From IMG/VR virus record IMGVR_UViG_3300030116_001321, positions 1-25,211 of that record: a DNA stretch of 25,211 nucleotides; one strand, given 5' to 3'. Position numbers and translations under genes: made by a program. Every line of letters begins with the position of its first letter. Position 1 is the stretch's first letter. This document shows, in pieces, positions 5,018-10,934 of this stretch. The DNA comes from a virus. Below the pieces are notes generated by a model. It was not told the DNA's origin. It did not search any database and saw nothing but the letters and a program-made list of their open reading frames with translations.

Positions 5018-5279
5018 TAAAAACTTTATTTCTATAGATGGCTTTCAAAGAAATAGAATAAATGATGCTCGTATATCAACAGATGTTGCTGCATTATTTA
5101 ATACAGATTTAGGACAAGAAGTATTTAAGTATTTAAAAAGCATTACGATAGATGCTGTTAATGGTCCTCATGTAACGGACGCAGAGTTGCGTCACCTCGA
5201 AGGTCAGCGATATATAGTTGGCTTAATTGATAGAAGAATCCAACACGCACATAGGGTGAAAAATGAACGAGCAAGTTGA
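5010..5279 (+). CDS. Hypothetical protein between portal and scaffold, 89 residues
   Basis: Starts at GTG 5010, eight bases inside the portal gene, with CAGGGAGA upstream as a plausible ribosome binding site, and ends 17 bases inside the scaffold gene. The sequence is helical with the distinctive segment VTDAELRHLEGQRYIVGLID. I recall comparable short proteins beside the portal gene of marine podoviruses but know no function. Its size and place suggest a head-assembly or virion component; no domain is recognised. Confidence 0.65.
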   Translation: MSNKNFISIDGFQRNRINDARISTDVAALFNTDLGQEVFKYLKSITIDAVNGPHVTDAELRHLEGQRYIVGLIDRRIQHAHRVKNERAS

Positions 5280-6042
5280 ACAGAATACAGTCGCAGATGT
5301 AATGGAAAAGAATGAATCAACAGAAAATGTTTCACGTGAAACATCTGTTGATGCAGCAATGGACACTATTGCACCAGTTGAACGACCTGAATGGTTGCCT
5401 GAAAAATTTACAACAGGTGAGGATTTAGCAAAGTCTTATAAAGAATTGGAAACAAAAATAGGTGCAAAGGAAGAAGAGTACCGAGATAAATTCCAGAAAG
5501 AATTTGAACAAGAAGCGTTTAAAGATCGACCCGAAGCAAAAGGTGACTACATTATTAGTGAAGAAGCACAGAAACTTTTAGATATGGGTGCTGCAACAGA
5601 TAATAAATTATTGGATTGGTGGTCACAAACAGCATTTGATAATGGATATAATCAGGAAGAATTTAATCAAGGTATTATGATGTACCTTGAACAAATAAGT
5701 GAAACGCTTCCTAATCCAGAAGAAGAACTTGTTAAGTTAGGTGATAATGCGAATGTGCGTATTGAAGCTGCATCTTTATTTGCCAATCAATACTTTCCTA
5801 AAGACTTAATGCCAACAGTTGAATTGCTTGCATCAACAGCAGAAGGTGTAAAAGTTTTGGAACATATACAGGAAAAACATAAAGGCATAAATGTTAGCAC
5901 TCCTTCTCAGCCTATTAATCAAATTAATGAAGCGCAGCTTCGTGACTTAATGGCATCAGACGAATATCATAATCCTGCAAAAAGAAATCCAGAAGTAGTA
6001 AGGCAAGTCGAAAGTGGATTTAAACAATTATATAAATCGTGA
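5263..6042 (+). CDS. Capsid assembly scaffold, T7 gp9-like
   Basis: Internal scaffold that directs procapsid assembly and leaves before DNA fills the head. The 259 residues are acidic and mostly helical, with a disordered N-terminus, the block PEWLPEKFTTGEDLAKSYKE at about residues 42-61 (a hallmark of scaffold and capsid-assembly proteins of this class), and a long central helical region ending in a basic C-terminus (residues 240-259) that would contact the coat protein. It lies directly before the gp13-like and capsid genes, as expected. A perfect parS-type palindrome is embedded at codons 22-28 (residues NVSRETS), inside the poorly constrained N-terminus. Function is from family and context. 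Confidence 0.86.
   Translation: MNEQVEQNTVADVMEKNESTENVSRETSVDAAMDTIAPVERPEWLPEKFTTGEDLAKSYKELETKIGAKEEEYRDKFQKEFEQEAFKDRPEAKGDYIISEEAQKLLDMGAATDNKLLDWWSQTAFDNGYNQEEFNQGIMMYLEQISETLPNPEEELVKLGDNANVRIEAASLFANQYFPKDLMPTVELLASTAEGVKVLEHIQEKHKGINVSTPSQPINQINEAQLRDLMASDEYHNPAKRNPEVVRQVESGFKQLYKS
5327..5344. other. parS-type palindrome (ParB binding site)
   Basis: ATGTTTCACGTGAAACAT is a perfect 18-bp palindrome. Its inner 16 bp (5328-5343, TGTTTCACGTGAAACA) are identical to the consensus chromosomal parS site bound by ParB in most bacteria. It lies inside the scaffold gene, encoding N22 to S28. A given 16-mer is expected by chance about once per four billion positions. I saw no second copy and no other CACGTG-centred site in the window. 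The match is seen in the sequence; ParB binding to this phage copy is inference. Confidence 0.8.
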
Positions 6043-8361: not shown

Positions 8362-10934
8362 TGCAAAAAGCAAAAATTCCTATTCAAAATTTTCAGTATG
8401 GTGAAGTAAGCCCTGCCCTTGTTTCCAGAACAGATACAGAGATTTATAATAATTCTGCTCAACGATTGCAGAATTTTTTTCTACGAGCAGAAGGTGGAGT
8501 ATTAAAACGTTCAGGTACAAAACATATTTATACTTATGATATAACGCAAAACAATACAGCTTGTACAATTACCGTAACGGATTATGCTAATATAGCTGTT
8601 GGTGCATTTATTACATTAACAACATCAACAGGAACGGAAGTTGTATTTACAGCAGAAGCAGCAGGTTCTTCATCGGCTTCTGATTCTCAAGGCTTTAGAC
8701 CTTATACAGATAATAATACAACAGCCGATAATATATACACGGCTATAAATAATCATAGTTTATTTACAGTATCAAATCCTGCTGCAAATGTTATTACAGT
8801 TACAGAAACAACACCTAATGCAACAGGGTTTTTAACAGCAACAAGTTCAGATGGAACACGATTAGCCGTTACAAGTCAGGCTAGAAATAGAACACAGCAA
8901 GCAAGACTTGTTCCTTTTATTTTCTCAGATGACGAGCGATATATAATATCTTTAGAAAATGCAAAGATAAGATGCTTTCAAGTTAGTACAGCAGATGTTG
9001 TATCATTGGTTGCAACGATTACGCAAGATACCGATAGTGCTGCCGTACCTTTTGCTGATTCAATCCTGCATGAAATATCTTATGCTCAGTCAGGTGATGT
9101 AATGTTTTTGGCGCATCAATCTTTCCCAGTTAAAAAGCTTGTGCGTACAGGACTTACATCTTTTGAATTGCAAACATTTGAGTTTGATAAAAACTCGGAT
9201 AATACATTAATCCATCAACCTTACAGTAAGTTTCATACAGATGGATTAACTATTGACCCAAGTGCTTCAACGGGAAGTGGTGTTACAGTAACAGCAAGTG
9301 CAAGTTATTTTGAATCAAATCATGTTGGTGTAACTTTACGTTATCATAATAGTGAGATACTTATTACTGGATATACAAGTGCGACTGTTGTTACAGGAAC
9401 AGTACAGGGTAATTTAAAACAACAATTAGATATTAATGCTTTAAGAACAATAGATGGTTCGGCATCTATAGAAGTCACTCATGTTGCTCATGGATTAAAA
9501 ACTGGAGATTCAATAGCTATAACAGAAGCTGCAACAATAGCAACTTTAACAGCTGCAAATATTAATGGTACACGCACAATAACATCTGTTGTAGATGAAA
9601 ATAGATATAGATTTTCGGCAGCAAGTGGAACAGCTAATGCTTCTGTAGATGGTGGAGGTGCGCCTGTTATAACAACTCATGCAGCAACAACAGATTTTAG
9701 TGAGCAATCTTTTTCGTTGGTTCGTGGTTATCCTGCTGCTGTTGCTTTCCATGAAGGACGATTATGGTTTGGTGGCTCAACATCACAGCCAGATACTTTG
9801 TGGGGAAGTAAGTCAAATGAGTTTTTTAATTTTGATTTAGGTACGGCTGCGGATAATGATTCTATAGAATTGCTTGCAAGTATAGGTGAGATAAATACTA
9901 TACGTCATATTGTTTCTAATCGTGATCTACAAGTCTTTACTTCAACCTCAGAGTTTTATGTACCTTCATTTCAAAACTCACCTATTACTGCAACTAATGC
10001 ACAGATAAAAAGACAGACACCGTTTGGCGCTTCCTTTGCCAAGCCTTATGTGTTTGATGGTTCGACATTGTATGCTCAAGCATCAGGTGCAGCTATAGCA
10101 GAATATCTATACAATGATGCTCAAAATGCTTATTCATCACAAAGTATTTCAACTGTATCATCTCATTTAATTAAGTCACCACATCAAATGGCTGTGCTTC
10201 AAGGCTCAACAACACGACCAGAAGCTTATTTATTTGCTATCAATAATGATGGAACAATAGCTGTATTTAATGCAAATAGAGCAGAACAAAAAGCAGGATG
10301 GACAGAGTTTACAACGAATGGTCTATTTGAATCTATTTGTGTTATTGATACCAATGTTTATGTAACGGCTTGGTTTGATACTGGTGCAGGTACAAAGAAG
10401 CTTTATATGATGCAGTTTGATTCAACAAAGAATTTAGATTTAAGTCGTGATTATGTAACAAGTGCAACAAGTACAATAGCAGGTGTATCATCAGATTGGG
10501 TAAATGGTGCAGTCCTAGATGTAATAACAGAAACAGATTATGTCGGTCAGTTTACTATGGCAAGCAATAAGATTGATACAAGTACAAGGGAGGCTGTGCC
10601 TATTAACCGTAAGGTTGAAGTAGGATATACATTTCCTGTAAGTTTAAAAATTAATCCTATTGATATAGCTTTACAATCAGGACCATTAACAGGAGAGCCA
10701 CGTTCTTTAAATAAAGTTATTGTTGATATGAGTGATACAGGTGCAATATCAGTTAATGATAATAGTTTAATTATACGACAAACAACAGATGATTTTAGTA
10801 CAGGTCGTTCTAATTTTACAGGTAAGAAAGAGTTTCGATTGCTTGGTTATTCTAAAGACCCACAGGTAACCATCAGCCAGTCTGCACCTCTTTCTTTGCA
10901 GATCAATGGTTTAGTAGCGGAGGTAACTTTCTAA
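8361..10934 (+). CDS. Tail tubular protein B (nozzle), T7 gp12-like
   Basis: Forms the tail nozzle below the gatekeeper. At 857 residues it is longer than T7 gp12 (794). The N-terminal QNFQYGEVSPALVSRTDTEI, then LRAEGGVLKRSGTKHIY, and the middle YPAAVAFHEGRLWFGGS (about 457-473), then DTLWGSKSNEFFNFDLG, are family signatures of the beta-propeller tail nozzle. Between them lie what look like inserted beta domains: about residues 62-172 (TVTDYANIAVGAFITLTT onward), about 295-352, and about 363-437 with the recurring phage pattern AHGLKTGDSIAIT ending in FSAASGTANA. These could add surface interactions, for example with a host receptor. The gene is preceded by a strong GGAGGAG. Confidence 0.92.
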   Translation: MQKAKIPIQNFQYGEVSPALVSRTDTEIYNNSAQRLQNFFLRAEGGVLKRSGTKHIYTYDITQNNTACTITVTDYANIAVGAFITLTTSTGTEVVFTAEAAGSSSASDSQGFRPYTDNNTTADNIYTAINNHSLFTVSNPAANVITVTETTPNATGFLTATSSDGTRLAVTSQARNRTQQARLVPFIFSDDERYIISLENAKIRCFQVSTADVVSLVATITQDTDSAAVPFADSILHEISYAQSGDVMFLAHQSFPVKKLVRTGLTSFELQTFEFDKNSDNTLIHQPYSKFHTDGLTIDPSASTGSGVTVTASASYFESNHVGVTLRYHNSEILITGYTSATVVTGTVQGNLKQQLDINALRTIDGSASIEVTHVAHGLKTGDSIAITEAATIATLTAANINGTRTITSVVDENRYRFSAASGTANASVDGGGAPVITTHAATTDFSEQSFSLVRGYPAAVAFHEGRLWFGGSTSQPDTLWGSKSNEFFNFDLGTAADNDSIELLASIGEINTIRHIVSNRDLQVFTSTSEFYVPSFQNSPITATNAQIKRQTPFGASFAKPYVFDGSTLYAQASGAAIAEYLYNDAQNAYSSQSISTVSSHLIKSPHQMAVLQGSTTRPEAYLFAINNDGTIAVFNANRAEQKAGWTEFTTNGLFESICVIDTNVYVTAWFDTGAGTKKLYMMQFDSTKNLDLSRDYVTSATSTIAGVSSDWVNGAVLDVITETDYVGQFTMASNKIDTSTREAVPINRKVEVGYTFPVSLKINPIDIALQSGPLTGEPRSLNKVIVDMSDTGAISVNDNSLIIRQTTDDFSTGRSNFTGKKEFRLLGYSKDPQVTISQSAPLSLQINGLVAEVTF

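Follow-up and report, generated by a model that had tools for sequence, protein, structure and literature searches.

The stretch of viral DNA analyzed here (25,211 nucleotides, hereafter the window) carries at 5328-5343 an exact 16/16 match to the palindromic chromosomal parS consensus TGTTTCACGTGAAACA, and the best overall explanation for this site, which we consider likely, is that a single parS serves as a DNA element that lets the ParB protein of the host load on the phage genome, which may then be tethered or partitioned. The part of this explanation that we hold most firmly is that the phage parS is a putative loading site for host ParB, which the comparisons below make very probable. 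The relevant features of the window are as follows.

5263 to 6042, plus strand: capsid scaffold gene (259 aa), assigned by similarity and position; its poorly conserved acidic N-terminus holds parS
5327 to 5344, no strand: perfect 18-bp palindrome ATGTTTCACGTGAAACAT, in which an A and a T flank the 16-mer; the longest in the window
5328 to 5343, no strand: ParB-binding-type parS 16-mer TGTTTCACGTGAAACA; exact consensus match, kept in relatives
5326 to 5343, plus strand: codons 22-27 (NVSRET) overlapping parS; the VSRET codons are frozen in six divergent lineages

The site in the window and its phage

The preliminary description of this DNA had reported a perfect parS inside the scaffold gene at 5327-5344, and this is borne out by the exact 16-mer at 5328-5343 within the 18-bp palindrome. 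No other perfect palindrome in the 25.2-kb window reaches 14 bp, and the 16-mer is the sole match to parS within three mismatches (mean in shuffled sequence, 0.15). An exact parS is expected 5.9e-6 times per window under uniform base frequencies, 8.7e-6 times given the base composition, and 9.0e-6 times under a second-order Markov model, so that the earlier figure of about six per million windows was right. In the reading frame of the surrounding gene, the codons at the site are AAT GTT TCA CGT GAA ACA, which encode residues 22-27, NVSRET.

The assignment of the open reading frame (ORF) at 5263-6042 as a capsid scaffold gene is supported by its position and by its similarity to annotated scaffolding proteins. 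Matches in tblastn were obtained to such proteins of pelagiphages, roseophages, and Vibrio phage CKB-S2, together with a weak match to PHROG 1052 ("head assembly"; E = 1.7e-5), and the order portal-orf-scaffold-orf-MCP fits this identity. More widely, the genes run from a terminase small subunit-like gene through TerL, portal (head-tail adaptor), a small Bbp19-like ORF, and the scaffold to an internal-virion-like ORF, the MCP, tail tubes, two large internal virion proteins, fibre, and lysis genes, downstream of which SSB-like and ERF recombinase genes lie on the opposite strand; the names of the tail, internal virion, fibre, and lysis genes derive partly from position and from the annotation of MEP301. 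Among cultured phages, Pelagibacter phage EXVC031P "Hodr", which infects SAR11 HTCC1062, is the closest (TerL, 65%; MCP, 53%). The records OQ414635 and OQ414636 ("Hodr" and "Baldr") each bear the locus tags of the other, and the isolate names may be swapped.

Homologs of the MCP occur in 81 of 385 sampled alphaproteobacterial genomes (E ≤ 1e-10), mostly at 41-52% identity, and the eight best of these loci share the order of neighbouring genes as far as tested, which makes an alphaproteobacterial host probable. These loci (L382-L397) point to a widespread prophage group related to the virus, present in about one-fifth of the 385 genomes. In the near-complete relative G004, no integrase was found among the roughly 20 early and small proteins scanned; the window itself is a 25-kb fragment. 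SAR11 was considered as the host but found no support, as a search of 397 SAR11-family genomes found no phage of the subfamily and the cultured relatives carry no exact parS.

Codon conservation and placement of the site among relatives

Ten of the 15 scaffold relatives examined carry the exact parS. Two others have TGTTTCACATGAAACA (NVSHET), with one central mismatch, and the CA centre in place of CG, seen in L009 and L014, may bind ParB poorly. In a further two, both close relatives, an in-frame loss of 9 nt (GTTTCACGT) within parS leaves ENETS (L007:4201-4350 and L008:3846-3995), and the distant L016 is the one scaffold relative without any site. Exact parS sites also occupy the same place in the scaffold genes of distant lineages, namely L144/L145 (52-53% scaffold identity), L070 (45%), L160/L162 (41%), and L177 (33%), whose N-termini are otherwise unalignable around the kept site. 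Across six divergent scaffold lineages, 22 columns hold the same amino acid with at least fourfold codon degeneracy, and the codon itself is identical in only four of them. These four are exactly the V, S, R, and T of parS, compared with 0 of 18 columns elsewhere in the gene, and the chance of four frozen columns falling on the site is 1/C(22,4) = 1.4e-4. In the MCP, taken for comparison, 11 of 112 invariant columns of the same degeneracy are frozen.

A selected VSRET peptide, with the palindrome as its by-product, could account for the common reading frame at all scaffold sites. Yet the codons at the site are frozen despite common synonymous change nearby, the three residues VSR have been lost by deletion in close relatives, and other relatives have exact sites in non-coding DNA or, in one case, a one-mismatch site in another frame (below). 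We have rejected a peptide constraint on these grounds and regard it as very improbable. The preliminary description had proposed a DNA function as the simpler explanation, to be abandoned if relatives kept NVSRET and lost the palindrome through synonymous changes; among the relatives examined, there are no cases of synonymous loss with the VSRET peptide retained. The frozen codons amid varying comparable ones and the exact non-coding sites support the proposal, and the evidence favours selection that acts on the DNA rather than on the peptide. As to the accompanying question, whether the site stays in place while synonymous positions around it vary, parS is frozen in the six scaffold lineages and lies elsewhere in several relatives.

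These other placements are diverse. In L057 (TerL, 66%), the exact 18-mer sits in the intergenic gap between the portal gene and the homolog of orf5010, and in G100, an exact parS lies between genes, upstream of an ORF that by eye is endonuclease-like. Both G097 and G098 have exact sites within a large internal virion protein gene, G090 has the one-mismatch variant TGTTCCACGTGAAACA in another frame (MVMFHVKQ) at the start of a small ORF, and L204 has a variant with a CA centre in the C-terminal tail of the ORF preceding the MCP. With the exception of G098, every positive record holds one site within two mismatches. In the 33.8-kb contig G098 (L372 and L373), both ends contain a segment of the internal virion protein gene, 84% identical, each with an exact parS, reflecting either a chimera from assembly or a genuine duplication. 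The site TGTTGCACGTGAAACA of L199/L203, inside an internal virion protein gene, may be a chance match and was kept out of the support, and the weaker sites of L169 and L202 (three mismatches) were disregarded.

Among ten near-complete relatives and isolates (≥29 kb), chosen without regard to parS, the site is exact in five, has one mismatch in one and two mismatches in one (Hodr, which retains only the remnant TGTTTCAAATGAAACA), and is absent from three. No parS within two mismatches was found in seven other pelagiphage isolates, nor was any site found in about 60 partial relatives. Because so many relatives are without it, parS appears to be useful but dispensable. On an MCP tree, the labels for sites in the scaffold gene and for sites elsewhere are scattered, which points to repeated gains, moves, or losses; the records scored as lacking a site on this tree are mostly partial, and their count is rough. 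Since the site moves, we disfavour a role bound to expression of the scaffold gene or to one set position in packaging. In eight relatives residing in alphaproteobacterial genomes (20 kb each), there is no parS (best match, four mismatches), an absence that fits a cost of an extra chromosomal parS in what is a small sample, mostly of higher GC content.

That some relatives have no parS would also be expected if the site were a chance occurrence. However, a sequence expected at about 1e-5 per genome recurs at several positions unrelated to one another in relatives picked irrespective of it, and control palindromes are rare in viruses (see below), so that we find chance hardly credible.

A putative partner and what it may do

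The preliminary description had raised the possibility that the phage encodes its own ParB elsewhere, and this was not found. Profile searches with PF02195, PF17762, or both covered 20 or more distinct related records: no ParB domain was detected in 19 records with PF02195 or in 11 with PF17762 (some shared between the sets), parB was not found in the window, and no recognisable ParB is present in the window or in 20 related records. A Pfam scan of about 20 early or small proteins of G004 likewise yielded neither ParA nor ParB. As a result of these searches, the ParB of the host is the likely partner. The window phage and its relatives thus share with phi29 the carriage of parS with no ParB found; the P1-like combination of parA and parB in one genome was not seen, with ParA checked only in G004.

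A true phage partition system, in which an unrecognised ParB-like protein of the phage binds the site, would have room among the early proteins that have no assigned family. Against it, neither near-complete relatives nor Hodr give a match to ParB_N or HTH_ParB, and the sequence is the chromosomal consensus, whereas phage and plasmid ParB systems mostly have their own sites. We rejected a phage-encoded ParB on the searches with PF02195 and PF17762 and judge the unrecognised variant improbable.

The chromosomal ParABS of SAR11 offers a point of comparison. Of 15 SAR11 genomes, 10 have parS within one mismatch, located in rsmG between mnmG and parA and read there as VSRET, and 12 have a protein of the ParB family, with parB 1.5-1.7 kb from parS; a single good chromosomal parS is present. 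Genes in these genomes were named from their order and from motifs that could be recognised; for the expected parA, one of these was the Walker motif KGGVGKTT. SAR11 and the phage share the same 16-mer in the same frame of a coding sequence (NVSRET), but the SAR11 site adjoins parA and lies near parB, while the phage has neither gene, and the flanks show no evident homology. Direct capture of the phage site from host rsmG was rejected, as the similarity, judged by eye, does not reach beyond about 19 bp.

Host ParB loading on phage DNA, as the preliminary description had suggested, is a reading supported by an exact, selected, and movable parS in a phage without a recognisable ParB. From established ParB biochemistry, ParB-CTP clamps of the host would load at the phage parS and slide over several kilobases of phage DNA. 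If the analogy with phi29 and Spo0J holds, host ParA and SMC might then treat the phage genome with its coat of ParB like an origin region, so that it is tethered and positioned at the nucleoid, and in a stalled infection of a slow-growing host, it could be passed to a daughter cell. We tentatively favour tethering and partition as the main benefit of the loaded ParB, with somewhat less than even confidence; the next choices are ParB titration, in a host with a single parS, and SMC-driven compaction.

Titration would mean that phage copies strip ParB from the single parS of the host, so that host segregation stops or host DNA is freed, while nothing is gained from how the phage DNA itself is handled. 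As there is only one good parS per SAR11 genome, phage replication would quickly yield more copies than the host has sites, and titration is also compatible with the free placement of the phage parS. It should, however, favour several sites per genome, yet nearly all records of the family have one, and the phi29 precedent (PMC9437464) is one of tethering and entrapment. We therefore consider titration rather unlikely. A little less likely still is condensation, in which ParB on the phage DNA would recruit host SMC and replicating concatemers would be organised for recombination or packaging. ParB is known to load SMC at parS in many bacteria, and the sites of this family fall mostly in the late part of the genome, with the head and internal protein genes, but those of G100 and G090 lie near early or replication genes. 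Tethering and partition stay our first choice for what the loaded ParB would provide.

parS in other viruses and in known systems

Viral contigs are strongly enriched in parS. In IMG/VR, the 16-mer occurs in at least 120 contigs, as does the 18-mer ATGTTTCACGTGAAACAT alone, compared with 1, 5, and 11 contigs for three control palindromes. No ParB match (E ≤ 1e-3) was present in 48 of 50 parS-bearing IMG/VR contigs tested, many of which are fragments. Some IMG/VR contigs (L033, L060, and L434) have four or five parS sites clustered within a few kilobases, in contrast to the single site in the family of the window phage. Among records of cultured phages, a padded parS BLAST query matched 369 and a control 11; as BLAST allows mismatches, not all of the 369 are exact; a ParB of the phage itself is possible in some cases, and some of the records are of doubtful origin. 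Many "Listeria phage LM 4-..." records with parS were not relied on, being contigs that lack annotation and whose origin is uncertain. The matched phages infect Listeria, Bacillus, Lactobacillus, Arthrobacter, Microbacterium, Gordonia, Pseudomonas, Vibrio, and others, and small single-stranded DNA (ssDNA) phages are also included. Among 60 evenly spaced rows of these matches, there was no phage of Escherichia, Salmonella, or Klebsiella, hosts that to our knowledge do not have ParABS. Pseudomonas phage phiPsa374 (L364) has a near-consensus parS at 389-404, in its left direct terminal repeat, and another at 98150-98165 of the record, near the right end, and the left terminal repeat of Vibrio phage phi 3 likewise contains a parS-like match.

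The strong excess in viral contigs suggests that phi29 and Spo0J are one example of a common strategy. It is tempting to speculate that the capture of host ParB by a single, freely placed parS evolved repeatedly in unrelated phages, among them tailed phages of actinobacteria, bacilli, pseudomonads, vibrios, and marine alphaproteobacteria and apparently also ssDNA phages, that it serves the handling of the phage genome in stalled or slow infections, and that phi29 was merely the first case seen; we consider this about as probable as its opposite. If the window site indeed loads host ParB, abundant marine phages would join host chromosome segregation by means of a 16-bp tag, without genes of their own, and there would be a testable handle on the persistence, positioning, and inheritance of phage genomes in slow-growing bacteria. 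As parS marks hosts with ParB, it may also be a clue to the hosts of metagenomic phages.

The preliminary description had left open whether such a site was already described. Among virulent phages, the use of host ParB has a known precedent in phi29, in which host Spo0J (ParB) is reported to mediate entrapment of the phage genome in the spore (Meijer et al. 2005, EMBO J 24:3647, as cited in PMC9437464). A literature search, with most subscription journals outside it, returned no account of a marine podovirus family with a single exact parS or of a general parS excess in phages.

The genome of phi29 (L356, NC_011048) contains four identical one-mismatch sites TGTTCCACGTGAAACA, at 10445 (in the connector gene), 15903 (in the endolysin gene), 17243, and 18760. 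This virulent podovirus, with near-consensus parS that lies partly in structural genes, relies on host ParB, and its requirement for Spo0J is published; the family of the window resembles it in carrying parS and in its putative use of host ParB. The two differ in their virion and replication gene sets. In contrast to the four one-mismatch sites and sporulating host of phi29, this family has one exact site and a host that is probably a non-sporulating alphaproteobacterium; we know of no alphaproteobacteria that make endospores. P1 ParABS and the parAB mycobacteriophages (PMC7157519) likewise have a ParB-type centromere on phage DNA, but they bring their own ParA and ParB and their own sites, and ParA and ParB were not found in the family of the window. 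Finally, phages with CtrA, LexA, or Spo0A sites (PMC9437464) are alike in that a virus bears binding sites for a regulator of its host. Those sites act on transcription from promoters; parS instead loads a sliding clamp, and its placement is free.
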